Part shown: in pieces, positions 1,403 through 16,479 of the stretch | Numbering within the stretch: position 1 is the stretch's first letter | Layout: each line of letters starts with the position of its first letter | IMG/VR virus record: IMGVR_UViG_3300048834_000280 | Span: 1-32,049 of that record | Length of the DNA stretch: 32,049 nucleotides | Source of the DNA: a virus | Reading direction: 5' to 3' (one strand) | Translations under genes and position numbers: made by a program | The notes under the pieces: model-generated | Database searches by the model: none | What the model was told of the DNA's origin: nothing | The model's input: the letters and a program-made list of their open reading frames with translations, nothing else

Positions 1403-1891
1403 ATGGCACGCGCTGACGCGACGATTCAATCGACCATCGACAACGGCACCCTCACGATTACAGTTGCGGGCTTCCCCCCGATTGTGATCGACCCCACGGA
1501 TTACCCGACCGAGCTAGTAGCCTATGCTGCCCTTCACGGGTTCAAACAGCGCTACGTGGATGCGGCAGCCCTGGGCGCCGATGCCACCCCGGCGGAAAAG
1601 CATGCCGCCATCACGGCGTTGGTGGACCATCACGCCACCACGGGCGAATGGCGCCGCAATGGCCAAGGCGATGGCACGACAGGCGATGGCCTCCTCGTTC
1701 GGGCTATCATGGAATATCACGGGATGGACCGTGATGCGGCGCGCACGGCCGTGGCGGGCTTGGACAAGAAGACCCAAGCCGCACTCCGGGCATCGGCGGA
1801 ACTGTCCCCGATCATCGAGCGCCTGCGCGTGGCCCGCACGCCGAAGGCATCGGTGGATGTCAGCGCGATCCTCGCAGGCATTGGCCGCTAG
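1403..1891 (+). CDS. Hypothetical early protein, paralogue of gene at 5229 (162 aa)
   Basis: AAGGAG at 1391-1396 fits the ATG at 1403 with six bases of spacing; the in-frame ATG at 1397 touches it and is less likely. The middle and C-terminal part aligns with the product of the gene at 5229: shared blocks include EWR (near residue 82), GLDKKTQAALRASAE against GLDNKTKAALRASAE, and a final VDVSAILAG against VDTASVLAG. The end resembles that of the 8287 product too. The family is unknown to me. The helical block followed by a flexible basic linker and a short hydrophobic tail suggests a protein-binding C-terminal peptide. Confidence 0.8.
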   Translation: MARADATIQSTIDNGTLTITVAGFPPIVIDPTDYPTELVAYAALHGFKQRYVDAAALGADATPAEKHAAITALVDHHATTGEWRRNGQGDGTTGDGLLVRAIMEYHGMDRDAARTAVAGLDKKTQAALRASAELSPIIERLRVARTPKASVDVSAILAGIGR

Positions 1892-1898
1892 GCCCCCC

Positions 1899-1949
1899 GG
1901 CACCCCGGTTAGGGGTGCCTCCCTTAGCCTAGGGCTATCGTGGCCCTAG
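1899..1949. repeat. Two tandem stem-loops after the 1403 gene
   Basis: GGCACCCC (1899-1906) pairs with GGGGTGCC (1912-1919) and CTAGGGC (1929-1935) pairs with GCCCTAG (1943-1949). The second stem repeats the TAGGGC/GCCCTA word of the stem at 1351-1371. There is no T run, so these are more likely RNA-stability, processing or protein-binding elements than terminators. Confidence 0.5.
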
Positions 1950-1965
1950 ACTATAGGAGATGATT

Positions 1966-2178
1966 ATGAAAAGCGGTAGTGTCTCATTCGGGTCGATAGT
2001 GCCAGAATTTTGTGTCAGGTTCGATTTTCGCGAGCTATCCGCACGCGATCAAACAACACTATTTAATGCCTTGGCAGAACATCTCGGCATTACGGATGCC
2101 ACGCATGCACGCCCGGACGAATCCTATCAAGTGCTGTGGAAAGAGATGATGGGGCGTGTTTGGGGAGCCGACAAATGA
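1966..2178 (+). CDS. Small hypothetical protein (70 aa)
   Basis: AGGAG (1955-1959) is six bases upstream of the ATG at 1966; an ATG at 1960 abuts it and is unlikely to be the start. The 70-residue product has no family I recognise. It has a central block FRELSARDQTTLFNALAEHLG that looks like a helix pair. It overlaps the next gene by ATGA, so the two are probably co-translated. Confidence 0.7.
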   Translation: MKSGSVSFGSIVPEFCVRFDFRELSARDQTTLFNALAEHLGITDATHARPDESYQVLWKEMMGRVWGADK

Positions 2179-2417
2179 CAATCCAACTACACACTATCCG
2201 CCACGGTAAATCCAAGGCGGCACTACAGGCCGAATTGAACGCGATGCCCGATCGCGTCCGGTTTTGGAACCCTAGCCCCTTCAGCGACAACCGTAGCGGG
2301 TTTTTCAGTGGTTCCGAGATGAAGCCAGGTGAATCCTTCGCATGCGTCTTGGACCCGGACACGCGGCGCCGATTTGCTATCGTGGCGCGAACGGCCAGCG
2401 GCTTCCGCGTCACCTAG
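2175..2417 (+). CDS. Small hypothetical protein (80 aa)
   Basis: The ATG at 2175 overlaps the stop of the previous gene (ATGA), which decides the start. The 80-residue product is basic and looks like a small beta-rich fold, ending FAIVARTASGFRVT. No family is recognised. It is the last gene before a 240-base control region with operators and a promoter. Confidence 0.7.
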   Translation: MTIQLHTIRHGKSKAALQAELNAMPDRVRFWNPSPFSDNRSGFFSGSEMKPGESFACVLDPDTRRRFAIVARTASGFRVT

Positions 2418-2461
2418 TCGGGCATGCGCGTAGGGGCATGGGGGCATCCGCCCCCTATAGT

Positions 2462-2559
2462 CGTTTCCCGGCCGTTTCCCGCCCCGTGGCGCCGTCCGAC
2501 ACCGGGCACCCTATGCAGGGGCGCCCACGGGTTCCGAACCGGGAAACGGGCCGTTTCCC
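2462..2559. promoter_or_regulatory. CGTTTCCC operator-like array
   Basis: Four copies of CGTTTCCC occur: two direct copies at 2462-2469 and 2473-2480, then an inverted pair GGGAAACGG (2541-2549) and CCGTTTCCC (2551-2559) forming a 19-bp palindrome with one central base. The array is 33 to 130 bases upstream of the promoter at 2592-2621, as expected for a regulator of that promoter. The binder is unknown. Confidence 0.5.
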
Positions 2560-2591
2560 CATGCGGCGCCATAGGGGCTAGAGCCCCCCTA

Positions 2592-2621
2592 TTGCACCCT
2601 GCGAACCCGCCCGGTTATAAT
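2592..2621 (+). promoter_or_regulatory. Sigma70-type promoter
   Basis: TTGCAC at 2592-2597 and a perfect TATAAT at 2616-2621 are separated by 18 bases, 36 bases upstream of the small gene at 2658. The bases after the -10 box (GACC) resemble those at other promoters in the window. It probably drives the genes from 2658 to 3497 and perhaps the cassette behind them. Confidence 0.75.
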
Positions 2622-2657
2622 GACCACGTTATCCCCGTGAACCAATAGGAGCCACCT

Positions 2658-2804
2658 ATGACCATCGATCACGATGCACACATGCACCTTGACCCATCGA
2701 ACCGGCCCCGGTGGATGGAGCCATCCCCCTACACCCGCAGGCGCACGGACCCGAAGCCCCCATTGTGGCTCCGCATCGCCCGGTGGGTTTGGGGGTGGCT
2801 CTGA
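2658..2804 (+). CDS. Tiny Trp-rich protein (48 aa)
   Basis: An AGGAG-type ribosome binding site (TAGGAGCCACCT) precedes the ATG at 2658, just downstream of the promoter at 2592-2621. The frame runs 48 codons and its TGA overlaps the ATG of the next gene (TGATG). The product has a His/Asp-rich start (MTIDHDAHMH), a Pro/Arg-rich middle and an amphipathic Trp-rich end (WLRIARWVWGWL) that could lie on a membrane. I recognise no family. Position, ribosome binding site and the coupled stop/start all argue for a real gene. Confidence 0.6.
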   Translation: MTIDHDAHMHLDPSNRPRWMEPSPYTRRRTDPKPPLWLRIARWVWGWL

Positions 2805-3199
2805 TGCCCCGCATCCGCCCCCTCGAGACCTACCCCTATCGGCAATTCCTGGCGGTATTCACAAAGGTAGCCGAAACCCGGCAGCCCTTCCTAATCGCGT
2901 GCACCCGGCCGCAGGCCGCATCCCTCCGAGGCGAACTCTACGCCTTCCGTCGGGCCTGCGAGAACCAAGCCCAATCGGCCCAGGTTATGGGCATTGACGT
3001 GGCGCAGCTGCGCGACGTGGCCTTCCGCATCGTAGCCGAAGGGCTGGAGGCGTGCCATCAATCCAGCCTGCAAGGGCCGGCGTTGATCGAGGCGGCGCTC
3101 GGAGGCACCCCGCTCGCACCGAAGACAGCGGCCCAGCTAGCGCTGGAACGGCTCCAAGGTATGGGCCTACAACCAGGGGCACCCGATGAGCGGGAATAG
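2804..3199 (+). CDS. Hypothetical early protein (131 aa)
   Basis: The ATG at 2804 overlaps the stop of the tiny upstream gene. The product starts MPRIRPLETYPYRQFLAVF and is mostly helical by composition, with an Arg/Ala/Gln-rich centre and an acidic end. No domain is recognised. It overlaps the next gene by 14 bases, which suggests translational coupling. Confidence 0.7.
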   Translation: MPRIRPLETYPYRQFLAVFTKVAETRQPFLIACTRPQAASLRGELYAFRRACENQAQSAQVMGIDVAQLRDVAFRIVAEGLEACHQSSLQGPALIEAALGGTPLAPKTAAQLALERLQGMGLQPGAPDERE

Positions 3200-3497
3200 G
3201 CCATTCGCCCAGGTATCGGCCTATCCGGCCGGCTTCCTCGCGGCCATCCAGAATGGTGGAGGGGTGTTCTATGCCGCTGACCTGCCATGGACACCGACCA
3301 CTTCGGCGAAGCGGTTCCGCCAACTCCTTGCCTTGCTACGCAAGCAACCAGGGCACCCGGCCTGTGCAAACGCAGGCCATCGCTGGCGGGTTGAGGTTAC
3401 GGCCAAGGCCCTCGTCACGTCAATGAACCAGCGCGGGGTGCCTGCAGCCTACCCGCATGGGCTTTTGATCGAGGCTGCGCTGGAAGGACAAACATGA
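3186..3497 (+). CDS. Hypothetical early protein (103 aa)
   Basis: The ATG at 3186 lies inside the end of the previous gene and the stop overlaps the next ATG. The 103-residue product is basic, with a central helix-like segment SAKRFRQLLALLRKQPG and two Cys/His positions (about 60-66). I recognise no family; a small DNA-binding protein is possible but unsupported. Confidence 0.65.
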   Translation: MSGNRPFAQVSAYPAGFLAAIQNGGGVFYAADLPWTPTTSAKRFRQLLALLRKQPGHPACANAGHRWRVEVTAKALVTSMNQRGVPAAYPHGLLIEAALEGQT

Positions 3498-4333
3498 GCA
3501 CGGACAAGGTGCGCGAGGCGCTGGCGAAGATCCGCGAATACATCGAGGGCAACTCGGTCTACGGCCGTCCGCACATTCTGGAGGATTTTCTGCCCATCGT
3601 GGAAGAGGCCGCAGCCCGCGAAGCGTTATCTGCGCAGCCTGCAGAGCCGGTGGCGTGGCGCTATCACTCACCCAGCACTTGGCGCCTTGCCAGCAAGCCA
3701 GCGCTGCAGGCTTACACCGACATTTTGCCGGGCTTTGAGCAGGAGCCGCTGTTTGCCACGCAGCCTGCGCCGAGCGTGCCAGATCTGCCGGACCCAAATC
3801 AGCTTGAATCTTGGCGCACTGCCGCAGACGAGCTGTTGCGCAATCCGCAGCACATGCCAACTATCCGGTCAGCAGCGTTTCAACTTCAGAACGCTTACCT
3901 GTTTGCCCGCAAGCTCGCAGCCCTCGCATCCCAGGCCGAGAAACACGCTGCCGAGCTAGCCAAGCTGCGGCAGGGTGAGCCGGTGGCCGGGTGGCGACTA
4001 CTGAAGGACACCACCTACGCAGAGCGCTCTTGGCCTGAAGATGCGAGCCACGAAAACGGCTGCTATTCAAACACATGCTGCCACTGCGGGCGCGCGTTCA
4101 CGGGCCACAAGCGCAGACCGTCTTGCAAGGCGTGTAGCGCCGCCTCCACTCCACCAGTCCAGCCCCTGCGTGAGGCGCTGCAGCCGCTGAGCGATGCAGA
4201 CTTCCTGCGGTGCGCTGATGAGAATTTCCCTGACTGGCGGGTTGACATTCAGGAACGCTTTGTAACCGAATTAGGCCACGCAATCGAACGCCTCATCACC
4301 GAGCGCATGAGCGCAGCAAAGGAGACGAAGTGA
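3494..4333 (+). CDS. Ead/Ea22-like protein with zinc-ribbon-like motif (279 aa)
   Basis: The start is set by GGAAGG shortly upstream and by the overlap with the previous stop. The N-terminal half has the sandwich typical of Ead/Ea22-type accessory proteins of temperate phages: a helical part (1-48), an AEPVAWRYHSP block, then LFATQPAP, and a second EPVAGWRLL block near residue 162. Around residues 196-217 there is CHCG...CKAC, a possible zinc ribbon. Such proteins vary widely between phages and have no settled function. The gene and its two followers have visibly lower GC than the rest, which suggests a cassette acquired as a unit. Confidence 0.65.
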   Translation: MSTDKVREALAKIREYIEGNSVYGRPHILEDFLPIVEEAAAREALSAQPAEPVAWRYHSPSTWRLASKPALQAYTDILPGFEQEPLFATQPAPSVPDLPDPNQLESWRTAADELLRNPQHMPTIRSAAFQLQNAYLFARKLAALASQAEKHAAELAKLRQGEPVAGWRLLKDTTYAERSWPEDASHENGCYSNTCCHCGRAFTGHKRRPSCKACSAASTPPVQPLREALQPLSDADFLRCADENFPDWRVDIQERFVTELGHAIERLITERMSAAKETK

Positions 4334-4521
4334 AAACCGTAACCGTAGACGCTTCAGCATTGCGCGAGGTGCTTTTGGCTCTTGTCGGTCCACCGCACCT
4401 CGTTCGAGAACTGCAGGCCACAAGAGACAAGCCGCCGCTCTTTGAGGGCAACCCGATCGACACGTTGCTGAGTGATTTCAACAGGGCTGTCGAGAGCGCA
4501 GCGAAGGAGACTGGATCGTGA
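4330..4521 (+). CDS. Small hypothetical protein (63 aa)
   Basis: The gene overlaps the previous stop by ATGA and its own stop overlaps the GTG of the next gene, so the three form a coupled unit. The product starts MKTVTVDASALREVLLALVGPPH and is largely helical. Short proteins of this look are common in Ead/Ea22-type regions. No function can be given. Confidence 0.6.
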   Translation: MKTVTVDASALREVLLALVGPPHLVRELQATRDKPPLFEGNPIDTLLSDFNRAVESAAKETGS

Positions 4522-5126
4522 GCAACATCAGCGCCCAATGGGCAGACGGAATGGAATTGCGCGTCAAGGAGCAGGCCGCCCAGATAGCGGCGCTCAAAAC
4601 TGTGATGGTCGCCGCAGCCGAGGAAATCGCCGCGCATTGGAACGCTCACTGCGACGCTGAAGGCTATGGCCCGCAGAACCTGCTGCGCCGGCTGGAGGAA
4701 GGCATCCCAAGCGAGTACGGCTACACGGCCGGCGCTTTCGCGGCGCTTACTGCTGAGCTGGAGCTTCGGCGTAAATCAGGCAGTGCTTCTGACAGGTTGC
4801 ACAACATTTGCGAAGGCATCGCGCGTGATGCCGATGGCAGCGAATGGTCACGCGAAGAGTGGGAACGGCTAGATGCGGAAATGGCCGAACTTAAAGCCGC
4901 AAATAAGACGCTCACTGCTGAGCGGGATGCGCTGTACAAGGCGCTTAAAGACGCAACCATCCGCATGGACAGAGCGCGCGACATTTTGACTGATGGAAAG
5001 CCAACGCCCCAGTGCAACTGGGGCGTTCTCGACACGTATCCGCAGCATAAAGCACTCGCAGCCCGCATCCAGGCACACAAGCCAGCCATCGAGGGACAGA
5101 CACCGGACATGCCGTCGGCCGATTGA
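4518..5126 (+). CDS. Ea22-like coiled-coil protein (202 aa)
   Basis: The start is a GTG overlapping the previous stop. The product has a helical N-terminal part, a block around 90-100 (RLHNICEGIARDADGSEWS) and a likely coiled coil from about 113 to 150 (EWERLDAEMAELKAANKTLTAERDAL). This pattern matches Ead/Ea22-type phage accessory proteins of unknown function. It closes the lower-GC cassette. A promoter-like region with a palindrome follows before the gene at 5229. Confidence 0.6.
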   Translation: MSNISAQWADGMELRVKEQAAQIAALKTVMVAAAEEIAAHWNAHCDAEGYGPQNLLRRLEEGIPSEYGYTAGAFAALTAELELRRKSGSASDRLHNICEGIARDADGSEWSREEWERLDAEMAELKAANKTLTAERDALYKALKDATIRMDRARDILTDGKPTPQCNWGVLDTYPQHKALAARIQAHKPAIEGQTPDMPSAD

Positions 5127-5134
5127 CGGTCAAT

Positions 5135-5177
5135 TAGGGTTTTCCCTACCCCACGCATCCACCATCAGAGCTACAAT
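5135..5177 (+). promoter_or_regulatory. Candidate activator-dependent promoter
   Basis: The palindrome TAGGGTTTTCCCTA lies at 5135-5148 and TACAATGGCC at 5172-5181. There is no good -35 box at the right distance, but the palindrome is centred about 30 bases before the -10 box, where a class II activator overlapping the -35 region would sit. The promoter at 5892-5935 has the same layout. It would drive the gene at 5229. Confidence 0.5.
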
Positions 5178-5228
5178 GGCCACGCCAATCGACGAATCCC
5201 CGTCAACCCCCCTCCCAAGGAGCACACA

Positions 5229-5810
5229 ATGGCAAAGACCCCTGTTGAGATCAAGACCGTCACAATGGATGACGGCCGTACCGTCGAGTTCAGCGGCAAG
5301 AAGCGCCTGGACAAGAGCATCATCATCGAAGGCGACACCGTCAAGGTCCGCCTCGACTTCGTGAATGGCGAAACCCGCACCTTCACCGTGCCCCCGAGCC
5401 TCCTGCTCCAATGCGCAGGCCACGGCGCCAGCCAGAAGCTGGGCGACGAGATCTCCGATGTCACTGACATTGAGGACGCGATCGAGGCGATCGACCAGCT
5501 GATGGCCCGCCTGGAACAGGGCGAGTGGCGCGTGGCCCGCGAAGGCGGCACCTCGATGGCCGGCGCCTCGATTCTGGCGAAGGCCTTGGTGGAAGTCACC
5601 GGCCAGCCGATCGCCGTGGTGCGCCAGTACCTCACCGGCCTGGACAACAAGACCAAGGCGGCCCTCCGCGCCTCGGCCGAAGTCGGCCCGACGGTGCAAC
5701 GGCTGGAAGCCGAGAAGGCAGCCCGTGCCGCCGAGCGTGGCAAGTCGGCCCCGACCGTGGACACCGCCTCCGTGCTGGCTGGCCTGAAGGGCGTTGCCGT
5801 TCCGGCCTGA
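5229..5810 (+). CDS. Hypothetical early protein, paralogue of gene at 1403 (193 aa)
   Basis: AAGGAG lies just before the ATG. The N-terminal 70 residues look like a small beta-rich domain (VEIKTVTMDDGRTVEFSGKKRLD...). From about residue 60 on, the protein aligns with the product of the gene at 1403: both have EWR, then GLDNKTKAALRASAE and a basic Ala-rich linker ending in VDTASVLAGLK. The gene is flanked by two look-alike promoters and followed by a strong terminator, so it is its own transcription unit and may be highly expressed. Family and function are unknown to me. Confidence 0.85.
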   Translation: MAKTPVEIKTVTMDDGRTVEFSGKKRLDKSIIIEGDTVKVRLDFVNGETRTFTVPPSLLLQCAGHGASQKLGDEISDVTDIEDAIEAIDQLMARLEQGEWRVAREGGTSMAGASILAKALVEVTGQPIAVVRQYLTGLDNKTKAALRASAEVGPTVQRLEAEKAARAAERGKSAPTVDTASVLAGLKGVAVPA

Positions 5811-5845
5811 ACCGAGTTCATCCCCTGGCCCTTCGCAGAGCCTTC

Positions 5846-5873
5846 AATCCCGCCCAGGTGGCGGGATTTTTTT
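5846..5873 (+). terminator. Strong intrinsic terminator
   Basis: AATCCCGCC (5846-5854) pairs with GGCGGGATT (5860-5868) around a five-base loop, followed by a run of seven T (5867-5873). It ends the transcript of the gene at 5229. Confidence 0.9.
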
Positions 5874-5891
5874 CGCCCGAATGGGGCGGGT

Positions 5892-5935
5892 TAGGGTTTC
5901 CCCTATGTTTTTGCCGGGAATAACGGGTATATAAT
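5892..5935 (+). promoter_or_regulatory. Candidate activator-dependent promoter
   Basis: The palindrome TAGGGTTTCCCCTA at 5892-5905 is followed by a perfect TATAAT at 5930-5935 and then GGCCGGG. No consensus -35 box is at normal distance: TTGCCG at 5911 is only 13 bases away. The palindrome-to-minus-10 distance (38) nearly equals that at 5135-5177 (37). It lies right after the terminator and 64 bases before the gene at 5999, so it likely drives the early cluster 5999-8054. Confidence 0.6.
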
Positions 5936-5998
5936 GGCCGGGTGAAACGACGTAGTGCACCCAATCGGGCGCCCGGACGATTCGCCTAGGAGTCAATT

Positions 5999-6319
5999 AT
6001 GCCACGCAAACCCCCCGAGACGTTAAATCGGCTTGACCGGAAGATGCACCGTCAGCTGGAAGACTACGTTCTGGCGAACTATGTAAAAGAGGCGACGACC
6101 GATGTCGCCTTTGCCAAGATGGCTGAGGAGGCCCTCGGCTTCCCAGTGACAAACCATAACGTCGCGGGAGCCCGCGAGATGTTCGACATCCCCTCGACGC
6201 GCTTCGCCGTCCGCGAAGAAGGCGACATCCCCTCCATCCTTCGCCGCCTTAACGCCCTTGAACAGCGAGTTCAAGTCTACATCGACGGCTGCTGCAAAGA
6301 TCCGAGGAGCCCCAAATGA
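5999..6319 (+). CDS. Hypothetical early protein, possible DNA binder (106 aa)
   Basis: TAGGAG lies upstream of the ATG. The product starts with a basic stretch (MPRKPPETLNRLDRKMHRQLEDYVLAN) and continues with a block resembling a helix-turn-helix (VAFAKMAEEALGFPVTNHNVAGAREMF, about 38-64), which is close to the way recognition helices of phage regulators look. A coiled segment follows near the C terminus (ILRRLNALEQRVQVYI). A DNA-binding regulator is therefore plausible but not proven. It is the first gene of its cluster and overlaps the next by ATGA. Confidence 0.7.
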   Translation: MPRKPPETLNRLDRKMHRQLEDYVLANYVKEATTDVAFAKMAEEALGFPVTNHNVAGAREMFDIPSTRFAVREEGDIPSILRRLNALEQRVQVYIDGCCKDPRSPK

Positions 6320-6543
6320 GCAAGGGCAAATGGAACGGCGGCCCCCCGCCAGCTGTGGGCTGGTGGCCAGCCTCCCGTAATCGAGTCTACGGCCCCTATC
6401 GCTGGTGGGACGGGAAAATTTGGTCCCTCCCGGCGTGGCGCGGGGATTCCCTTGAGACCGTCGCGCAGTATGCCGCTACCCCTTCGGAGAACCAAAAAGG
6501 AATCTGGTGGCGCTACTGGTCCAAGGGGAGGGCGATGCCATGA
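6316..6543 (+). CDS. Small Trp-rich hypothetical protein (75 aa)
   Basis: The ATGA overlap with the previous gene fixes the start. The product is very rich in Trp, Gly and Pro (WNGGPPPAVGWWPASRN, YRWWDGKIWSLPAW) and resembles small phage proteins of unknown role with repeated GWWP/RWWDG turns. No catalytic motif is seen. It overlaps the next gene by ATGA. Confidence 0.7.
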   Translation: MSKGKWNGGPPPAVGWWPASRNRVYGPYRWWDGKIWSLPAWRGDSLETVAQYAATPSENQKGIWWRYWSKGRAMP

Positions 6544-7055
6544 CCCTCTCCCTCACCGACCTCATTGCCAAGTCCAAGCTTGCCGTCGAGCTAACCGAGG
6601 CAGCGAAGAAAGCCAAGGCCTCGGCCAAAAAGGCCAAGTCCCCGCAGGCGGCAGCCGAGGCCCTCGAGCAGGCGCAGGAAATCCAAGCCCGCATTGACTG
6701 GCGCTCGCAGACCCTGGTCTTCCGCCTCATCAGGTGGGAATGCGCCTGCGGACACAGCGGCACCCGGCCGGATGGCCTATTCATCTTCCAGGAGCACGCT
6801 CGGATGGCCAACTCCTACCGCTTCATCCGGCCAGTCGAAGGCGGCTCGATCGACCTCCCCCGTCGGGTGCAGACTCTGACCGAGATCGTCAGCCTCTGCA
6901 TTGCCTGTTCTTCTGACTCGGAGTTCCGCCTTCCCTTCGTCGAGCCACCTCGCCGGCTGCCCCCATCTCCAGCTCGGGAGGGCCTCGGCCCCTACGTTCA
7001 GGAGTTCCGCCACCTCACAACCCCTATCCTTGAGGAGAACGACGATGGAGAGTGA
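6540..7055 (+). CDS. Hypothetical protein with helical N terminus and Cys pairs (171 aa)
   Basis: The ATG at 6540 overlaps the previous stop; an earlier in-frame ATG at 6507 lies inside the previous gene and is less likely. Residues 1-60 form a long Ala/Lys-rich helix, possibly coiled coil. CACG near residue 65 and CIAC near residue 122 could form a zinc-binding site at a distance. The C terminus is Pro-rich. I recognise no family. Confidence 0.65.
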   Translation: MTLSLTDLIAKSKLAVELTEAAKKAKASAKKAKSPQAAAEALEQAQEIQARIDWRSQTLVFRLIRWECACGHSGTRPDGLFIFQEHARMANSYRFIRPVEGGSIDLPRRVQTLTEIVSLCIACSSDSEFRLPFVEPPRRLPPSPAREGLGPYVQEFRHLTTPILEENDDGE

Positions 7056-7155
7056 TTTTTGGATCGCCCTCGGCATCTGGATGCTGTGCCTCTGCTGGCT
7101 CGTCGGCGCGATTGAAAACGCCGAGGACTACCCTTACGATGATGATACTTTCTAG
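7045..7155 (+). CDS. Single-pass membrane micropeptide (36 aa)
   Basis: The ATG at 7045 overlaps the end of the previous gene by 11 bases, behind GAGGAG. The 36-residue product has one hydrophobic segment, about residues 5-22 (FWIALGIWMLCLCWLVGA), followed by an acidic tail (ENAEDYPYDDDTF). This is a typical small phage inner-membrane peptide. Possible roles include superinfection exclusion or control of a host membrane protein, but nothing specific supports either. Confidence 0.6.
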   Translation: MESDFWIALGIWMLCLCWLVGAIENAEDYPYDDDTF

Positions 7156-7165
7156 GAGCCCGATC

Positions 7166-7504
7166 ATGCCCCAATTCCCGGTTGCCCTCACATCTGAGAT
7201 GCTACGTAAGGTGCAACTCCACCTCCGCTCAAATGCGAACACCCTTAGTGATGAGGAAGCCAACTACTACGTCCACATCTGCAATTGTCTGCGTCGCAGT
7301 CTACACGAGTCCGACGTAGCCGGCTTCTTTTCCGACTGGCTCTACGCAGTCGGCTGGACCAATGAACTCGGCAACAGCCTTTACTTCGATGTTTACGACC
7401 CAGAAACCGACAACATTCGCTGGCTCAACGGTGAAGAAGAACAAGGCGCTCGCTTCATGCTCCTCGAACTTCTGGCCCTCGCGGTCGAGGACGGTGCGCT
7501 GTGA
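7166..7504 (+). CDS. Hypothetical early protein (112 aa)
   Basis: TAGGAG precedes the ATG at 7166. The product is acidic, with a helical N-terminal half (LTSEMLRKVQLHLRSNANTLSDEEANYYVHICNCLRRSL) and an aromatic C-terminal half. No family is recognised. Its stop overlaps the GTG start of the next gene. Confidence 0.7.
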   Translation: MPQFPVALTSEMLRKVQLHLRSNANTLSDEEANYYVHICNCLRRSLHESDVAGFFSDWLYAVGWTNELGNSLYFDVYDPETDNIRWLNGEEEQGARFMLLELLALAVEDGAL

Positions 7505-7830
7505 ACTTCTACTTCGCTGAAACCCCCACCCTTCGCCTCAAGGTCAGCTGCACCGTGTTGCGTGGGCGCCCCGGCTGCATGTATCTATCCAATGGCGACC
7601 CAGGCTACCCACCCGAGCCCGACGAACTCCAGATGGAGTCCATCCTCGTCGAGAAGTTCTTCGGCGGCCAGTGGTGCGACACCGGCATTGATCTCCTCGG
7701 CTGGCTGTGGGAAGACGAGGACGAGACCCCCTTGACCAAGCTCGCGGAGGAAGCCTACAACATGTGGGACGAGTACGAAGATCGCATGCGGTGCGAAGCC
7801 TACGAACGCAGCTTCCCGGAGGATGTATGA
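7501..7830 (+). CDS. Acidic hypothetical protein (109 aa)
   Basis: The start is a GTG overlapping the previous stop codon. The product is strongly acidic in its C-terminal half (LWEDEDETPLTKLAEEAYNMWDEYEDR) and rich in aromatic residues. The acidic character could suit a protein-binding inhibitor or DNA mimic, but no family is recognised. The stop overlaps the next ATG. Confidence 0.65.
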   Translation: MNFYFAETPTLRLKVSCTVLRGRPGCMYLSNGDPGYPPEPDELQMESILVEKFFGGQWCDTGIDLLGWLWEDEDETPLTKLAEEAYNMWDEYEDRMRCEAYERSFPEDV

Positions 7831-8054
7831 AGTGGCTCTCCCGCTTGTTCAAGTCCCCTCACCGGCGCATTCGGCTCCGCCGTGCCCTCTGTGACACCTT
7901 GCAGTATTCCATCGAGCTGACTCACCAGATCGAGACCCTCCAGATTGAGGCCGAGGAGATCAAGCACCAAATTACCAACCTGCAGCAGGCCATCCGAGAT
8001 GCCGACCTCGCATGGGCTACGCAGGGGGTTGACACGGGGGTTTCGGCCGGGTAG
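7827..8054 (+). CDS. Small coiled-coil protein (75 aa)
   Basis: The ATGA overlap with the previous gene decides the start. After a basic N terminus (MKWLSRLFKSPHRRIRLRRAL) a likely coiled coil spans about 24-62 (QIETLQIEAEEIKHQITNLQQAI). The amphipathic basic start could contact membrane or nucleic acid. The promoter for the next gene overlaps the end of this reading frame. Confidence 0.6.
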   Translation: MKWLSRLFKSPHRRIRLRRALCDTLQYSIELTHQIETLQIEAEEIKHQITNLQQAIRDADLAWATQGVDTGVSAG

Positions 8055-8057
8055 AAT
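8029..8057 (+). promoter_or_regulatory. Consensus sigma70 promoter
   Basis: A perfect TTGACA (8029-8034) and TAGAAT (8052-8057) are separated by 17 bases. GGCCGGG lies directly upstream of the -10 box (8045-8051). The promoter starts inside the end of the previous gene and has its start site about 20 bases before the ATG at 8087. Confidence 0.8.
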
Positions 8058-8086
8058 CCGCCCATTACCCCCACCAATCACCGCCC

Positions 8087-8290
8087 ATGTCCCGCCCTCC
8101 CAAAGCCGAAGCCCGCCGCCGAGTGGATGTTTACCTCCCCGAGTCGGTGCATGCAGCCCTCACCATGCTGCTATTCTCCAGCGCCGAAGGCCGGGTGCCG
8201 CACGGCGCGTGGTCGGCGTTTTTCGAGACCCTCGCCCGACAGGCCCTCGACCGGGTGGCCACCGCTCAAGCAACCAAGGAACCAGTATGA
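8087..8290 (+). CDS. Ribbon-helix-helix-like regulator candidate (67 aa)
   Basis: The product has a basic start followed by RRVDVYLPESVHAAL, the usual beta strand and first helix of ribbon-helix-helix proteins, then a second helical part (WSAFFETLARQALDRV). The length fits an MetJ/Arc-type dimeric regulator. It is the first gene behind a consensus promoter, so self-control is plausible. No strong ribosome binding site precedes the ATG. It overlaps the next gene by ATGA. Confidence 0.6.
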   Translation: MSRPPKAEARRRVDVYLPESVHAALTMLLFSSAEGRVPHGAWSAFFETLARQALDRVATAQATKEPV

Positions 8291-8553
8291 CCCCCGAAGA
8301 TACCGCACGCATCCAGGCCACCCGCGCCAAAGTCCTCGCCGACCCGGCCTGGTCCAACACCCCCGAGGGCCGAGCCGAACTCACCCAGGCCATCGCCATC
8401 CTTCGCTCCGACCGAGTGTCTGCGTCCATCGGTTCCAGTGCCTCCCGCACTGCGAGAGCCGAGGCCGCGAAGCCCGTGGACACCGGCGCGGTGCTTGCCA
8501 ACCTCAAGGCACTCGGCGCCGGGCTGGCCTCGGGCGTGGTGAAGGGGGCCTGA
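8287..8553 (+). CDS. Hypothetical protein sharing a C-terminal tag (88 aa)
   Basis: The ATGA overlap with the previous gene decides the start. The N-terminal half (TARIQATRAKVLADPAWSNTPEGRAELTQAIAILRSD) looks like a small helical domain. The end, a basic Ala-rich linker and VDTGAVLANLKALG, resembles the ends of the products at 1403 and 5229 (VDVSAILAG, VDTASVLAG). The shared tail on otherwise different proteins suggests a common binding partner. Function is unknown. Confidence 0.7.
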   Translation: MTPEDTARIQATRAKVLADPAWSNTPEGRAELTQAIAILRSDRVSASIGSSASRTARAEAAKPVDTGAVLANLKALGAGLASGVVKGA

Positions 8554-8951: not shown

Positions 8952-9173
8952 ATGCACGTTGTCCAAGACATCGACGGCGTGATCGTCGCTCGCGGCCAGG
9001 CCACGCCCGACGGAGTCACCCTCCAACTCTGTGCCCCGTCGGGGTTCACCGAGCCGGGCAAGTCCTTCTATCCAGCCGAATCCCTCACCGTCAACACCCT
9101 CGACGGGGTGAAAAACCTCCGGGCCTTGTGCGATGATCTCCTGGCTGCCCACGCAGACCACATCGTCCCATGA
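8952..9173 (+). CDS. Hypothetical protein (73 aa)
   Basis: The gene starts one base after the previous stop. The product has a beta-rich N-terminal half (MHVVQDIDGVIVARGQATPDGVTLQL) and an Ala/Leu-rich helix at the end. Nothing identifies it. Its stop overlaps the start of the nuclease gene (ATGA), so it may be a partner or accessory of that enzyme. Confidence 0.65.
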   Translation: MHVVQDIDGVIVARGQATPDGVTLQLCAPSGFTEPGKSFYPAESLTVNTLDGVKNLRALCDDLLAAHADHIVP

Positions 9174-10081
9174 GGCCGCCCTTCCCTGACGTGGTGGACT
9201 CCACGATCCTCTCCACCGCCAAGTCCTGCCTCCACAAGGCCTACCGCCAGTACATCGAACACTGGAAGCCGGGCGAGGCTTCTGTCCACCTCATCGCAGG
9301 CGGGGCCTTCGCGGCGGGCCTCGAAACCGCCCGGAGAGCCTTCTATGTCGAGAAACAGTCGGCCGAAGAGGCACTCGCGCAGGGCCTCGCCAGCCTGTGG
9401 GCACACTACGGCGATTTCGAGCCGCCTGAGGACTCACCAAAGGGGCCTCTCCGGATGGCGGGGGCGCTCGAGTTCTATTTCTCCCAGTACCCGCTTGGAG
9501 CTGATGGGGCCACGCCCCACGTCTTCGGAGCCCGTCATGGAATCGAGTTCTCCTTTGCCGAGCCTCTGTCCGTCCGACACCCAGTCACCGGTGACCCGAT
9601 CATCTACGCCGGGCGAGCGGATATGGTCGCCGATGCCTTCGGGGGCCTCTTCCTCTACGACGAAAAGACCGCATCTCAGCTTGGCCCCTCCTGGCTCCGC
9701 CAGTGGGAGCATCGGTCCCAGTTTACCGGCTATTGCTGGGGACTCCGCGGCCACGGTTTCCAGCCGACAGGTGTTGTTGTCAGGGGAGTTTCGATTCTCA
9801 AGGGAGGCTACGGCACCGCGCAAGCGGTTACCTACCGCTCCGCCTGGGAAGTCGATCGCTGGCTCTTCGAAACCGAAGTCACCGTTCGTCGGATGATCCA
9901 GGCCTGGGAAGCCGGCTACTGGAACTTCAACCTCGACCATGCCTGCGCGGAGTACGGCGGGTGTGCCTTCCAGCGGGTGTGCAAGTCCCCCGAGCCGGAG
10001 AAGTGGCTCCCCCTGTACTTCCATAAGCGGCGCTGGGACCCCCTCGCGCGTGTCGAAATTAAGGAGATTGCAAATGTCTGA
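9170..10081 (+). CDS. PD-(D/E)XK nuclease, Cas4/RecB-like with Fe-S cysteines (303 aa)
   Basis: The order of motifs is that of Cas4/AddB-type RecB-family nucleases: D151 (in GRADMV), D164-E165-K166 (in LYDEKTA) and a downstream Q184-x3-Y188 (QFTGY). Four cysteines at 20, 259, 265 and 271 (CAEYGGCAFQRVC) fit the one-plus-three pattern that holds an iron-sulfur cluster in this family. It probably acts as an exonuclease in recombination-dependent replication or end processing, next to a RecA-fold ATPase and a candidate ssDNA-binding protein. The start overlaps the previous stop. Confidence 0.85.
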   Translation: MRPPFPDVVDSTILSTAKSCLHKAYRQYIEHWKPGEASVHLIAGGAFAAGLETARRAFYVEKQSAEEALAQGLASLWAHYGDFEPPEDSPKGPLRMAGALEFYFSQYPLGADGATPHVFGARHGIEFSFAEPLSVRHPVTGDPIIYAGRADMVADAFGGLFLYDEKTASQLGPSWLRQWEHRSQFTGYCWGLRGHGFQPTGVVVRGVSILKGGYGTAQAVTYRSAWEVDRWLFETEVTVRRMIQAWEAGYWNFNLDHACAEYGGCAFQRVCKSPEPEKWLPLYFHKRRWDPLARVEIKEIANV

Positions 10082-10608: not shown

Positions 10609-10942
10609 AACAGCCTATGCCGACTTCGTGAAGCTCCGCTTCAAGGCCGAGACCCCCGACACCCTGCACGTCGGCGCTCTTCTTCACGCAGCTGTCGGCA
10701 TCGCCGGGGAGGCCGGCGAACTCCTCGACGCGGTGAAGAAGACCTGGGTGTACGAGAGGCCACTCGACATCGCCAACTTGGTCGAAGAACTCGGCGACCT
10801 CGAGTTCTATATGCAAGCGATGCGGGCCGAGCTAGGCATCACCCGTGAGCAAGTGCTCGAGGCCAACGTGCAGAAGCTGCTCAAGCGCTATCCGACCGGC
10901 TACACCAACGAGGCTGCCATCGCACGGGCAGACAAAGTATGA
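10592..10942 (+). CDS. MazG-like nucleotide pyrophosphohydrolase (116 aa)
   Basis: Two in-frame ATGs are possible (10577 and 10592); AAAGG about eight bases before 10592 favours that one. The product has the MazG helical core: E40-x2-E43 in GIAGEAGELLD, E66-x2-D69 in EELGDLEFY, and the usual C-terminal LEANVQKLLKRYP. Enzymes of this superfamily cleave nucleoside triphosphates to monophosphate and pyrophosphate, and phage copies clean or reshape the nucleotide pool or alarmones. Substrate cannot be deduced. No purZ-like gene is present here to suggest a Z-genome. Confidence 0.85.
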   Translation: MPTSIETAYADFVKLRFKAETPDTLHVGALLHAAVGIAGEAGELLDAVKKTWVYERPLDIANLVEELGDLEFYMQAMRAELGITREQVLEANVQKLLKRYPTGYTNEAAIARADKV

Positions 10943-11793
10943 CCTTCTCACCTGCCACTTCCGCCCTCCCCGGCCCTAACGTCCTCCTCATGGGGCCAGC
11001 CGGCACCGGCAAAACCTACTCCATCGCCACCCTTGTCGAGTCCGGCATCGAGGTGTTCTACCTCTCCATCGAACAGGGCATCGAGTCCCTCCTCGGCTAC
11101 TGGACGGACGCAGGCAAACCGATCCCGGACAACCTCCACTGGCACAAGATCGACCCGCCGAAGGCCTCGTTCAAAGAACTCGCCGAGACGGCCCTCAAAG
11201 TCAACACGCAGAGCTATGAAACCCTTGGCAAAGCCGTCGATCTCAACCGACATACTCACAATCTCTTCATCAAGGTCAACGAATCATTTTTTGATTTCCC
11301 AGACGATCGTACTGGCACCAAATTCGGCTCCGTCGATACTTGGGGACCAGATCGCGCAGTTGTCGTTGATGGCCTCACAGGCTTGTCTCGTGCAGCTATG
11401 TCCCTCACAGTCGGGGGTAAGCCCATACGAAATCCAGGAGATTACGGTATCGCTCAAGGCCAGCTTGAGGGGTTCCTCCGACTCATCTGCGACCACTGCC
11501 GCTGCTGGTTCGTCCTCCTCGCCCACGTAGAGAAGGAGATCGACCCCGTAGCCGGTGGCATGAAGATCACCGTCGCCACGATCGGGAAGGCCCTCCCACC
11601 ACTCATCCCTCCTATGTTCTCCGACGTAATCCTCGCTTCGCGCGAGGGGAACAAGTGGGCCTGGAACACCGCCGCTGCCAACGTAGACACGAAGGCCCGC
11701 AACGTCCCCTGGCAGGACGGCATGGCGCCGGACTTCCGGCCACTGTACGACAAATGGGCATCGCGGGCAGCCGCGATGTCTGCATCCAAATAA
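10939..11793 (+). CDS. RecA-fold AAA-type ATPase, Sak4-like (284 aa)
   Basis: Walker A is GPAGTGKT at 19-26 and the Walker B strand is RAVVVDGLTG with D144. A polar residue region around 205 (LLAHVEKE) follows as in RecA-type folds. Proteins of this type (Sak4 / AAA_24 group) act in phage recombination with an ssDNA-binding protein and an exonuclease, which is just the set found here. The gene overlaps the MazG stop by ATGA. Bases 11221-11460, coding residues 95-174, have visibly lower GC than both flanks, a sign of mosaic exchange within the gene. Confidence 0.75.
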   Translation: MTFSPATSALPGPNVLLMGPAGTGKTYSIATLVESGIEVFYLSIEQGIESLLGYWTDAGKPIPDNLHWHKIDPPKASFKELAETALKVNTQSYETLGKAVDLNRHTHNLFIKVNESFFDFPDDRTGTKFGSVDTWGPDRAVVVDGLTGLSRAAMSLTVGGKPIRNPGDYGIAQGQLEGFLRLICDHCRCWFVLLAHVEKEIDPVAGGMKITVATIGKALPPLIPPMFSDVILASREGNKWAWNTAAANVDTKARNVPWQDGMAPDFRPLYDKWASRAAAMSASK

Positions 11794-11851: not shown

Positions 11852-12304
11852 ATGTCAGTCTTCGATCCCAACACCTTCGCTCAGATGACCTTCACGGAGG
11901 CCAACTCCACCGAAGCCAGTCCCGTCCCCGTCGGCGAATGGCCCGGCACCATCTCCAAGTGCGAAATCACCGCTTGGCAGTCCAAGAACGACTCGTCCAA
12001 GGCCGGCCTCAAGTACACCTTGCTCGTCGAAATCGAGGACCCGGCCGTGGCCGGAGTCACCGGGCGCCCGAAGTCCGTCGTCCGCGTCGAGCGCATGCTC
12101 GATCTGACCCCCGAGGGCGGCCTCGACTTCGGCAAGGGCATGAATGTCAACCTGGGCCGCGACCGGGCCGCGGTGGGCCTGAACAACCCCGGCCAGCCGT
12201 TCGCCTTCGACATGTTCGTCGGGCGCCCCTGCAAGGTGGCCGTCAAGCACGAGGAGTACCAGGGCCGGCTGCTGGCCCGCGGCAACGGAATTGCGGCACT
12301 GTAG
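11852..12304 (+). CDS. Candidate ssDNA-binding protein, DUF669-like (150 aa)
   Basis: The product starts MSVFDPNTFAQMTFTEANSTE and continues VPVGEWPGTISK, the usual opening of a group of phage proteins placed next to Sak4-type ATPases and often annotated as single-stranded DNA binding or DUF669. The body is beta-rich (GLKYTLLVEIEDP, KSVVRVERMLDLT) and ends with a KHEEYQGRLLARGNGI block. No clear ribosome binding site precedes the ATG. Function is inferred from position and general look. Confidence 0.6.
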   Translation: MSVFDPNTFAQMTFTEANSTEASPVPVGEWPGTISKCEITAWQSKNDSSKAGLKYTLLVEIEDPAVAGVTGRPKSVVRVERMLDLTPEGGLDFGKGMNVNLGRDRAAVGLNNPGQPFAFDMFVGRPCKVAVKHEEYQGRLLARGNGIAAL

Positions 12305-12436: not shown

Positions 12437-13771
12437 ATGCGCCCCAAATCCGCCGCCGAAATTATCGTTCCCCCCGGCCGTCAGCGCCAAGCCTTCGACG
12501 GTCCAGCCCTGCTGGAACTAGCCCAGTCGATCAAGACACACGGGCTGTTCCACGCAATCCAGCTACGCCAGGACGGTCAGACCCTCGTCTCGGGCGAGCG
12601 CCGCCTCCGGGCCATCCGAGAGCACTTGCTCCCCTTCGGGCACCGGATCATGTATAACGGGGAGAATCTCCCCATCGGCTTCATCCCCACGGTCGAAGTT
12701 TCCTCCGACGACGCGCTCGCGCTCGAGGAAATTGAACTCCACGAGAACCTGATCCGCAAAGACCTGACATGGCAGGAACATGCTGAAGCCACAGCCCGGC
12801 TGCATAACCTGCGGCAAGCACAGAAGGTCGCCGTAGGCGGGGTGCCGGTTCCGCAGACCTTCGCCGACACCGCCCGGGAGATTGTCGGCCCCGACGCCAA
12901 CGCCAACGACCAGTCCACAGTCCGGACTGAAGTCCTCGTCGCTGCCCATATGGACAAGCCCGAGGTGGCCAAGGCCCCGGACCTGAAGTCTGCCTTCAAA
13001 GCCCTCAAGCGGATCGAGGAGGCCCAGCGGAACCGGGACCTCGCGATTGCCGTCGGGGAGACCTTCTCAGTTGGGGATCACAAGATCTTCAATGCCAACT
13101 GCCTCACTTGGATGCTGGACCCTCAGTGGCATGAGAAGTTCGATGTCATTCTGACTGATCCCCCCTATGGCATGAACGCCCAGGACTTTGGAGACGGGGC
13201 CGGTCGACTCGAAGGCATCGACCATTCCTACGACGATTCCTATGAGGCCTGGAAATCCCTCATGGCCCAGTGGTCTGTTCTCGCTTTCACCGTCGCAAAG
13301 CCGCAAGCACACGCCTATGTCTGGTGCGACATCGACAACTTCCACGAGCTACGCGAGATGATGCGCAAGGCCGGCTGGTACGTCTTCCGCACCCCCCTCA
13401 CGAACTACAAGCAAAACAGTGGCCGGGTGCCCCTCCCAGACGAAGGCCCCCGTCGGCAATCCGAGTGGTGCCTCTACGCAATCAAAGGGCATAAGCGGGT
13501 CAACTACATCGCCTCGGACGTGATCGTCACGGGCGCCGACGAACAGCTCTCCCACGGCGCCCAGAAGCCCGTCGCCCTCTACGACGATCTCCTCCGCCGT
13601 TCTGTTAAACCGGGCGACTGGGTACTCGACACCTTCGCGGGCACGGGTACAATCCTCGCGGCGGCCCATCCCCTCAAGTGTGTGGCAGTGGCGGTCGAAC
13701 AGAATCCGACCTACTACGGGATCTGCCTACAGCGGCTGGATGGCCTCGAGAAGCAAGGGAAGCTGATATGA
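12437..13771 (+). CDS. ParB-like nuclease domain fused to DNA methyltransferase (444 aa)
   Basis: The N-terminal ~140 residues carry the ParB/Srx fold signature: SGERRLRAI (about 55-63) and ENLIRKDLTWQEHAEA (about 103-118). The C-terminal part is an amino-methyltransferase: motif IV TDPPYG at 240-245 comes before motif I DTFAGTGT at 398-405, an order typical of beta-class N6-adenine or N4-cytosine enzymes. It probably modifies phage DNA, for example against host restriction; no cognate endonuclease is visible nearby. ParB-methyltransferase fusions are common in phages. The target sequence is unknown. Confidence 0.9.
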   Translation: MRPKSAAEIIVPPGRQRQAFDGPALLELAQSIKTHGLFHAIQLRQDGQTLVSGERRLRAIREHLLPFGHRIMYNGENLPIGFIPTVEVSSDDALALEEIELHENLIRKDLTWQEHAEATARLHNLRQAQKVAVGGVPVPQTFADTAREIVGPDANANDQSTVRTEVLVAAHMDKPEVAKAPDLKSAFKALKRIEEAQRNRDLAIAVGETFSVGDHKIFNANCLTWMLDPQWHEKFDVILTDPPYGMNAQDFGDGAGRLEGIDHSYDDSYEAWKSLMAQWSVLAFTVAKPQAHAYVWCDIDNFHELREMMRKAGWYVFRTPLTNYKQNSGRVPLPDEGPRRQSEWCLYAIKGHKRVNYIASDVIVTGADEQLSHGAQKPVALYDDLLRRSVKPGDWVLDTFAGTGTILAAAHPLKCVAVAVEQNPTYYGICLQRLDGLEKQGKLI

Positions 13772-13929: not shown

Positions 13930-14336
13930 CCCCCCCCAATCCGTTCGACGCCCGGCTCGTCTTCATGGACGGCCCTCTCGCCCTCTACGTCCACGAAGCC
14001 TCGTCTCAGGAGCTCCTCGATGCCTACGCCCGTATCGGCCGTTACCTCACCATCGCCGGCCAGCAGCTCGACGCTGAAGCTGTCCGTAAAGCCAACCGGG
14101 CCGTGCCCGAGCCCCCTGATGATAGTGTCGGAGGCTCCGGGACCGAAGGAAGTGGAGGCTGGAGCTCCCATAGCATCGACGGCCGCGTGGCTCCTGTCCG
14201 AATGTATGAAAGAGGCGGAGCTTCGCCTGAGCGCATTTACTTCGACGGTCGGGAGGGAATTGCCCCCAGGAGCGGACCCGGGCAACTGGATCGCCAGTAC
14301 GATCAAAGCTCGAACCCCCGCCCACCGACTGATTAA
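13926..14336 (+). CDS. Hypothetical protein overlapping the polymerase gene (136 aa)
   Basis: A good AAGG-type site (CACAAGGAAAGCGCG) precedes the ATG at 13926. The first 60 residues (MTPPNPFDARLVFMDGPLAL, then AYARIGRYLTIAGQQLDAEAV) look like a real helical protein. From about residue 64 on, the frame runs through the start of the polymerase gene and its composition turns Gly/Ser/Pro-rich, as for an out-of-phase reading. Either the protein really has this long overlapping tail, or its frame is joined to the polymerase frame by a +1 shift near 14112-14121. Confidence 0.5.
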   Translation: MTPPNPFDARLVFMDGPLALYVHEASSQELLDAYARIGRYLTIAGQQLDAEAVRKANRAVPEPPDDSVGGSGTEGSGGWSSHSIDGRVAPVRMYERGGASPERIYFDGREGIAPRSGPGQLDRQYDQSSNPRPPTD

Positions 14337-16479
14337 CGGCAAGTACGTCCTCCCACCCCTAGCCGCTGGCCGGGACCTCCTTCTCCAGGAGGTCGATCTA
14401 TGCAAGCCCACAGTCGTGGTCGCAATGGGCAACATTGCCCTCTGGGCCCTCACCGGCAAATGGGGAGTCCGAAAGTGGCGATCCTCTATCCTCCAAGGCG
14501 AAGTCAATGGGCACCGATTTAAAGTTATCCCAGTCGAAACCCCAACCTCGGTACTCCGAGAGTGGCCCCGCCGCGGTCTACTCGTCCACGATCTGCGACG
14601 GGCAAAAGTGGAACTTGGCCGAGGGCCAGAGGTTTCAATCCCTAAATATCAATTCATTATCCGCCCCAATTTCCAACAAGCTTCGGCGTGCCTCCGTGAA
14701 CTCCTCGCCCGGCTGGATAATTCCTCCAGCCTTATCCCCCTTGCGGCTGACATCGAAACGCGAGCAGGCCATACTGCTTGCTTGGGTATCGCTTGGTCGC
14801 GGCTGGAGGCAATATGTGTGCCTTGGATGTGTGTGGAACGTGCGGAAGGTTATTGGAACGTCGAGGAAGAACTGGAGCTTGTTCTCTTCACTAATCAGAT
14901 CCTAACGCATCCAAAGGCCTCGGTGACCTGGCAGAACGGCGCATATGACCACCAGTACGAGCACCGATGGCATTTCATCCAGCCTAATCTTGGTTGGGAC
15001 ACAATGCTGGCCCACCACAGCATGTTTTCCATTAGCCCGAAAGGTCTCGATCACCTATCGTCCCTGTATTGTGACTATCATGCCTACTGGAAAGATGATG
15101 GTAAGCTATGGGACCCCTCAATCCCGGAAGAAGATTTTTGGACCTACAACTGCGAGGATTGTGTTAGAACCTTCGAGATTCGAGAGGCTGAAGAAGCAGC
15201 CATCCAGCACCTATCTCTCGACTGGCCAAAGCTTCCCTCCGTCGTCGCCTTTCAACACGCCCTCCAGCCCGCCGTCGTACGCATGATGCTCCGGGGCGTC
15301 CGCTCCGACGACCGCACCCGATCCGAGATGGGCAGAGCTCTGCTCGCCGCTTCCCAGCGCCTCCAAGGGGAGCTAACCCAGCTCTGCGGAGCCGAGCTCA
15401 ACATCAACTCCCCGAAGCAGATGCAGGAGTTCTTCTACGAAACGCTCCGGCAGACGCCGGTGAAGAAGCGGCGCCCCGACGGCACCTGGGGGCCGACCTG
15501 CGACGATGACGCCCTCCAAACGATCGCCCTGCGGGAGCCCGTTCTCCGCCCCGTCGTCGCCCGTATTCAGGCCCTCCGCTCGGGCGGGAAATTCCTATCT
15601 ACCTACGTCCAGATGCCACGGGACACGGATGGCCGGATGCGTTGCTCCTACAACGTGGCCGGGACAGTCACCTATCGCTTCAGCTCGTCCGAGAATGCTT
15701 TTGGCTCCGGGGGAAACCTTCAGAACATCCCAGTCGGCGACAAGGACGAAGACGCCCTGATCCTCCTTCCCAATATCCGAAAGCTTTTCCTCTTCGATGA
15801 AGGCTACACCGGATTCGATCTCGACGGCGACTCCGCTGACCTCCGCATTGTAACTGGCGAGTCGGGGTGCCGCCAGATGCAGGCCTACTTCGCCGCTGGC
15901 GCTAAGCCCTACGTCGAGATCGCGAAGGAGTTCTACCGCGACCCCTCCATCACCAAGCACCATCCCTCTTACAAACGCATGAAAGCCCTATGCCATGGAA
16001 CGAATTACGGAGGTGAATCTGCCGGACTCGCTGGACGAGTCGGATTGCCTGTCCATGACGTGGATCGAATCCAGTCCTGGTATTTTGGAATGTGTCCTGA
16101 AATCAAGCGATGGCAAGACGATATTAGAGACCAGTGTGACCGCCGTGGATATATTGAAAATCCTTTTGGCTACAGACTCTGGCGATGGGATCGCACTAGT
16201 CGTAAGCTACATAATGAATTCCTCGCGTGGATCCCACAGTCTTCAGTAGGGATACTGATTAACAAGGCCCTCCTGGCCATCGACCAATCCCTGCCGTGGT
16301 GCCAGCTCCTGCTCCAGGTCCACGATTCCCTTACCGGCCAGTACCCAACCCACATGGGGGACGAGGCGAAGCGGCAGATCCTCCGGGCAGCGGAGGTGGA
16401 GATCCCCTGCAAGTCGGGCACCATCATCGTCCCGATGGGGCTTAAGACCTCGCCCAAGTCCTGGGGGGATTGCGAGTGA
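14119..16479 (+). CDS. UDG-like domain fused to family A DNA polymerase (786 aa)
   Basis: The start at 14119 is chosen because the UDG-like homology begins there (MIVSEAPGPKE); the frame is open further upstream but lies out of phase with the previous gene. Residues 1-155 resemble family 4/5 uracil-DNA glycosylases, but the usual HP of the last motif is replaced (PVETPTSVLR, 138-147). Proofreading residues are D211/E213, N273/D277 and Y343/D347. Polymerase motif A has D569 and D574, motif B is K622...H626...Y630, motif C is QVHDS (733-737). The replicative polymerase of the phage is a safe call; glycosylase activity is doubtful. Two stretches (about 14480-15230 and 15940-16260) have lower GC than the rest. 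Confidence 0.9.
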   Translation: MIVSEAPGPKEVEAGAPIASTAAWLLSECMKEAELRLSAFTSTVGRELPPGADPGNWIASTIKARTPAHRLINGKYVLPPLAAGRDLLLQEVDLCKPTVVVAMGNIALWALTGKWGVRKWRSSILQGEVNGHRFKVIPVETPTSVLREWPRRGLLVHDLRRAKVELGRGPEVSIPKYQFIIRPNFQQASACLRELLARLDNSSSLIPLAADIETRAGHTACLGIAWSRLEAICVPWMCVERAEGYWNVEEELELVLFTNQILTHPKASVTWQNGAYDHQYEHRWHFIQPNLGWDTMLAHHSMFSISPKGLDHLSSLYCDYHAYWKDDGKLWDPSIPEEDFWTYNCEDCVRTFEIREAEEAAIQHLSLDWPKLPSVVAFQHALQPAVVRMMLRGVRSDDRTRSEMGRALLAASQRLQGELTQLCGAELNINSPKQMQEFFYETLRQTPVKKRRPDGTWGPTCDDDALQTIALREPVLRPVVARIQALRSGGKFLSTYVQMPRDTDGRMRCSYNVAGTVTYRFSSSENAFGSGGNLQNIPVGDKDEDALILLPNIRKLFLFDEGYTGFDLDGDSADLRIVTGESGCRQMQAYFAAGAKPYVEIAKEFYRDPSITKHHPSYKRMKALCHGTNYGGESAGLAGRVGLPVHDVDRIQSWYFGMCPEIKRWQDDIRDQCDRRGYIENPFGYRLWRWDRTSRKLHNEFLAWIPQSSVGILINKALLAIDQSLPWCQLLLQVHDSLTGQYPTHMGDEAKRQILRAAEVEIPCKSGTIIVPMGLKTSPKSWGDCE

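Follow-up and report, generated by a model that had tools for sequence, protein, structure and literature searches.

Three early proteins of a 32,049-base virus record (IMG/VR record IMGVR_UViG_3300048834_000280, the whole of which is called the window here) share a ten-residue tail in their C-terminal region, and the tails, which covary in register within each phage across three gene families, very probably serve one common partner. In the window the early genes lie on the plus strand and the virion genes on the minus strand, and the three proteins, P1, P2 and P3, represent families termed B, A and C, respectively (Table 1). An earlier note on this DNA had pointed to the endings VDVSAILAG, VDTASVLAG and VDTGAVLAN; all three are present, and their similarity exceeds that in every one of 2000 shuffles: within the last 40 residues, the highest-scoring ungapped 10-mer across all three reaches 90, against a shuffle mean of 44 and maximum of 71. 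The gene starts of that note are the better choice, because ribosome-binding-like sites (AAGGAG or AAGGAA; AAGGAG at ATG 1403) precede ATG 1403, ATG 5229 and ATG 8287 by 6 nucleotides. Alignment shows that the paralogy of P1 and P2 extends over the whole length (P1 residues 37-162, tail included, E=6e-15), further than the helical block before the tail to which the earlier note had assigned it, and both hold an HGxxQKxxD-like core (HGFKQRYVD in P1, HGASQKLGD in P2). The description of a shared tip on different bodies therefore applies to P3, which is unrelated to the other two and alone has a different, helical body, but not to P1 versus P2, where the tail is part of the paralogy.

None of the three proteins belongs to a convincing Pfam or PHROG family, scans of both giving sub-threshold matches only, of which the best is DUF6391 to P2 (E=1.4e-5, 25.7 bits versus a curated cut-off of 33). 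Searching the phage collection at the nucleotide level returned almost no matches, profile searches of solved structures returned chance matches only, and literature searches found no paper on A, B or C proteins. The phage group is environmental and barely represented in the annotated phage collection, and with the tail three conserved, unannotated early proteins gain a concrete handle. A second contig, IMGVR_UViG_3300048837_001096 (L003/L095), encodes P1, P2 and P3 identical to those of the window.

A tail common to three gene families

Relatives counted by contig number 94 for family B (P1-like), 98 for family A (P2-like) and 82 for family C (P3-like). Searches of viral contigs yielded 101 distinct family A and 98 distinct family B sequences, with A and B together in 79 of 113 contig groups (many contigs being fragmentary); among GTDB genomes, the A query found no match and the B query one phage-like contig of a metagenome-assembled genome. 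The tail, with the consensus V/I-D-T/S-D-A-L-L-x-E-L (more generally V/I-D-T/S-D-x-L-L-x-E-L), is found in 100 of the 101 A and 89 of the 98 B sequences. A position matrix built from the A and B tails alone was then run on 13,560 other open reading frames (ORFs) of related contigs, where matches scoring at least 12 in the last 60 residues occur in 70 ORFs, versus 3 with reversed sequences, 2.7 with shuffled ones and 1 with inner segments. These matches fall mostly in one family, so that family C was discovered through the tail alone. Its members have about 70 residues, with a helical body containing WRxKAxxGTLTxEEMREAI, a basic Ala-rich linker and, in about 90% of them, the tail; they are present in 48 of 48 near-complete contigs, and a hidden Markov model (HMM) of family C bodies from other phages, with the tail end removed, matches P3 at E=9e-8.

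Families A, B and C each occur once per genome in 17 near-complete genomes, MW202489 and the window, the C tail of genome G011 being excluded from this survey because its C gene extends past the end of the fetched piece. Other ORFs scoring at least 9 are few and scattered in the near-complete genomes, and only a Cys-rich protein of G040 resembles a real fourth carrier. The search of phage proteins that the earlier note had proposed thus finds the tail in dozens of phages and on three gene families; loss of the tail, or of the tail from a retained body, which that note had named as contrary to its reading, was also looked for, and the relatives proved in the main to keep body and tail together.

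The position of the tail and the nature of the linker differ in part from the first description. The tail belongs to the C-terminal region without being strictly terminal, as 15 residues follow it in P3, 0-36 in A relatives and 0-65 in B relatives, and the 18-residue linker before it has a basic character in families A and C (mean net charge +2.1 and +4.2), which would suit nucleic acid, whereas that of B has none (0.06). In sequences passing a low tail-score filter, which slightly favours the tail, conservation in family C reaches 2.56 bits for the tail versus 1.88 for the body and 1.42 for the linker, the tail of family B lies above its body and linker averages, and that of family A about equals its body. 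The A body is the most conserved of the three, with HGxxQKxxD invariant or nearly so, and B mostly retains this core. The AlphaFold2 model of P2 (mean predicted local distance difference test score, pLDDT, 88.9) comprises five strands and a helical portion, with the tail helix standing apart at residues 179-187, and the model of P3 (mean pLDDT 92.4) has helices at 3-60 and 66-82, the latter being the tail helix; the main-lineage tail is predicted to be an amphipathic helix carrying LLxxL. Foldseek of the A model found no convincing match in the PDB (best E=0.2) and only A0A5Q2W446 and A0A5Q2W5Y3 as clear matches in BFVD.

Same-phage covariation of the tails

Tails of the same phage resemble each other beyond permuted pairings, with z=8.9 for A-B (75 phages), 7.3 for A-C (77) and 5.7 for B-C (58). 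When the phages are thinned to at most 60% A-body identity (16-22 phages), z is mostly 3.4-6.3, one of 15 draws giving 2.1, and in the thinned set control segments upstream of the tail give a same-phage z of about 0 and register-scrambled tails a mean z of about 1. The covariation is strongest at tail positions 8-10, which would make a C-terminal contact face; by Fisher tests not corrected for relatedness, 6 clades have F at position 10 in both A and B (p=4e-6), and E at position 9 is common to A and C (p=6e-11).

Gene conversion between the tails was rejected on the codons: identity at shared residues, observed versus expected from each phage's own usage, is 0.42/0.42 for A-B, 0.48/0.44 for A-C and 0.38/0.42 for B-C, and the Leu codons of the tails are mixed, which indicates that the likeness is kept at the peptide level and not via recent DNA copying. 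In-register covariation across three separate genes, in the absence of gene conversion, has one shared partner as its simplest reading, and the partner suggested in the earlier note is well supported by these two results and by the conservation of the B and C tails above the average body position. When unrelated genes covary in this way, their sequences give direct evidence of a common binding partner and predict the contacting positions.

The A- and B-type tails of one phage, by sequence, still agree in distant relatives despite a shifted motif. L265 has IDSESLLDEF in A, IDSDDLLDNF in B and IDSDQLLDNF in C; Mel-JY34 has IDSEALLAKFA, IDDDELLEMFK and LSNEQVLDLFK, respectively; the L170 proteins end DSDLPI and TDADLPI; and Vibrio phage VS-ABTNL-3 has FDVDSLFN and FDINDLF ends, its C-type protein ending IDPQALLDDILGGI.

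Candidate partners and the replication-gene context

According to the proposed mechanism, A, B and C would carry the ten-residue helical tail on a linker, and a single partner would read the tail and bring the three proteins to one place; this partner may belong to the phage UDG-PolA / Sak4 / exonuclease replication-recombination set (Table 1). That the tail is a helical docking peptide for a single partner, perhaps a replication or recombination component, is an evenly balanced proposition, and the partner itself is about equally likely to be, or not to be, a phage-encoded member of the replication set; the estimates for the different partners overlap in part. The placement in the replication set is the weaker inference and follows from the set keeping company with the module whichever of several unrelated virion types is present: of the 19 genomes compared, all carry A, B and C (the C proteins being 18 members of one cluster and P3), and a DUF3987 primase-like gene accompanies them in 13, while the types of capsid, portal and large terminase vary and virion proteins reach at most 11 of the 19, except for a terminase-small-subunit-like protein (15 of 19). 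The UDG-PolA fusion marks the phage group, and PolA, UDG and AAA_24 are present again in near-complete distant relatives. The link from module to set runs one way, since in Kuura and a Desulfofustis phage UDG and PolA are found but A, B and C are undetected by HMM. Sak4 is a natural candidate partner, because a phage Sak4 depends on the C-terminal tail of a single-stranded DNA-binding protein (SSB). As for the smaller genes of the region, the product of the gene just upstream of P3 has no family match and looks ribbon-helix-helix-like by eye; that of the gene after Sak4 ends without an acidic tip, but it has no family match either, so its identity as an SSB is a guess.

Table 1. Positions in the window of the three proteins, their tails and the neighbouring replication genes; tail scores are from a position-specific scoring matrix (PSSM), and genome counts refer to the 19 genomes compared
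Feature	Position	Strand	Details
P1, family B protein	1403..1891	+	162 amino acids from ATG 1403; ORF open from ATG 1397
P1 tail VDVSAILAGI	1853..1882	+	PSSM 9.1 bits
P2, family A protein	5229..5810	+	193 amino acids; N-terminal part of five strands, followed by helical body, linker and tail helix
P2 tail VDTASVLAGL	5757..5786	+	PSSM 17.6 bits
Small gene upstream of P3	8087..8290	+	overlaps P3 by 4 nucleotides (ATGA); family in 91 related contigs
P3, family C protein	8287..8553	+	88 amino acids; helical body, basic Ala-rich linker, tail
P3 tail VDTGAVLANL	8476..8505	+	PSSM 12.4 bits
PD-(D/E)XK exonuclease, downstream of C	9170..10081	+	Pfam PF12705 1.7e-8; PHROG 1218; 15/19 genomes; candidate member of partner machinery
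Sak4-like AAA ATPase	10939..11793	+	PHROG 124 3e-12; 17/19 genomes; candidate partner
150-amino-acid gene after Sak4	11852-12304		conserved FDPxxFL-like start; SSB-like by position only
ParB_N / N6-N4 methyltransferase fusion	12437..13771	+	Pfam; 18/19 genomes
Uracil-DNA glycosylase (UDG) domain fused ahead of family A DNA polymerase	14020..16479	+	Pfam; 19/19 genomes and 31/31 further

Several points weigh against a single replication-set partner. In partial Mantel tests, which were no more than suggestive, no phage replication protein followed the tails better than the A body in most comparisons, and UDG alone gave no signal. The permutation on about 20 thinned lineages removes shared ancestry incompletely, 9 of the 98 B sequences have degenerate tails, and the association of the module with the replication set could stem simply from common ancestry of the early genes as a block.

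The most probable alternative, a distinctly minority one, makes a host protein the common partner (RNA polymerase, or a factor of replication or repair); the tail would then be a takeover handle that varies with the host. The early position of the genes is in keeping with this, a host pocket predicts the three-tail covariation equally well, the hosts recorded among the relatives differ (Microcystis, Vibrio), and the distant tails resemble bacterial SSB tips, which host proteins read. On the other hand, phages of diverse kinds have the module together with a UDG-PolA/Sak4 set of their own, and the main-lineage tail often lies internally, as an SSB tip does not.

It is unlikely, but deserves weighing, that the A body (or the A/B fold) is itself the receptor on which the A, B and C tails dock in trans, with A as the hub of a homo- and hetero-assembly. 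C-tail distances follow A-body distances after removing the C body, exonuclease, Sak4 or PolA (partial r about 0.2-0.25, p 0.003-0.04), and the A body, with its strongly conserved HGxxQKxxD core, matches or beats nearly every other family tested as a correlate of the C tail, for which reason A stays a rival partner. However, the A body may be a mere good proxy for phage phylogeny, PolA equals it in one distance test and the C body does so in another, and the B tails have no preference for it. A low probability is likewise given to a private docking code, in which the tip that other phages have on their SSB would sit on A, B and C, and one receptor in the UDG-PolA/Sak4 replisome would co-evolve with it phage by phage.

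The remaining explanations are far less probable. Targeting of the early proteins into the capsid, very unlikely here, would share the design of the T4 capsid targeting sequence, a short peptide common to otherwise different proteins (PMC9958956), but the T4 sequence is N-terminal and the tail C-terminal; it was rejected because the capsid, portal and terminase that accompany A, B and C are of several unrelated types, which leaves no single shared virion receptor. Absence of any shared function, with the A/B tail explained by duplication and the C tail by chance or DNA copying, would agree with the whole-length paralogy of A and B, but is extremely improbable given that C tails recur, highly conserved, in dozens of phages, that the covariation is specific to register and that codon identity is not clearly above expectation. 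A degradation signal for a host protease, conceivable for a hydrophobic C-terminal peptide on early proteins, has a near-negligible probability, since a tethered helix is predicted and the residues that often follow the tail, up to 65 of them, mean that it is not a C-degron.

Other short peptides

Short peptides of interest occur on further proteins of the window and its relatives. Family D (window 6507-7055), a zinc-ribbon-like family whose relatives bear an N-terminal, tail-like xLDDLLxES, sometimes twice, ahead of a linker, was excluded as a tail carrier, as it does not covary with the tails (z -0.5, 0.4, -2.0). A scaffold-like protein at 28498-29538 has SLRDSLSQAYD near its N-terminus and SLRDTLAAAYD at its C-terminus, and its relatives end in a GS[IM]DDTLxETL-like motif. 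In L164, two different small ORFs (577-861 and 1690-1974) end KTADELLNELE and KTADELLAELN, and here the tail was possibly recruited onto another body. A Cys-rich, putative fourth tail bearer ends ADALLAEL or ADALLNEL (L159 11202-11534, L152 10596-11189), and in Caulobacter phage Kuura (L212) otherwise different early proteins at 33048-33374 and 39440-40105 end LNIDDLFSE and LSIDDLLSTL.

Comparison with known systems

The C-terminal tips of SSBs, such as DDDIPF, NDYPPF of SSB-HK620 and the acidic tail of T7 gp2.5, are the comparison drawn in the earlier note, which stands in spirit only. Both are short acidic-hydrophobic C-terminal peptides after a linker, partner recruitment is a feature of SSB and is proposed for the tail, and distant A/B relatives end in the SSB-like DSDLPI, TDADLPI and FDINDLF. 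The differences are that three different carriers take the place of one SSB; that the terminal position of the SSB tip is not a rule in the main lineage, but is seen in distant relatives such as L170 and, nearly so, in L211; that the acidic run and [IL]-P-F end are replaced by the main-lineage consensus VDTDALLxEL, predicted to form an amphipathic helix; and that the carriers have no detectable SSB fold, the A model having its best PDB match at E=0.2 and the C model being helical instead of the oligonucleotide/oligosaccharide-binding fold. As the tails are often internal and their carriers are not known SSBs, the tail is not a canonical SSB tip.

The bacterial sliding-clamp binding motif, of the QxLxLF type, is a short linear motif through which a single hub serves many proteins. 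The tail is likewise a short linear motif with, as proposed, a shared hub, but it has no Gln and usually no LF end; no gene for a clamp came to notice in these phages, in which no dedicated search for one was made.

The internal proteins of T4 show that one short capsid targeting peptide can be common to several different bodies (PMC9958956). That peptide, of about 10 residues and N-terminal in contrast to the C-terminal tail, is tied to one prohead core and protease, whereas the tail accompanies a replication set and several virion types. The Sak4 of HK620 is stimulated by the C-terminal NDYPPF of the phage SSB and is recruited through it to SSB-covered single-stranded DNA (PMC5928155). Tip-dependent recruitment is demonstrated in HK620, while the tips described here stand on A, B and C and are known from sequence; in both cases a Sak4-like protein belongs to the early gene set. 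If the partner of the tails is the replisome, a small phage would organise its replication proteins with one reusable peptide.

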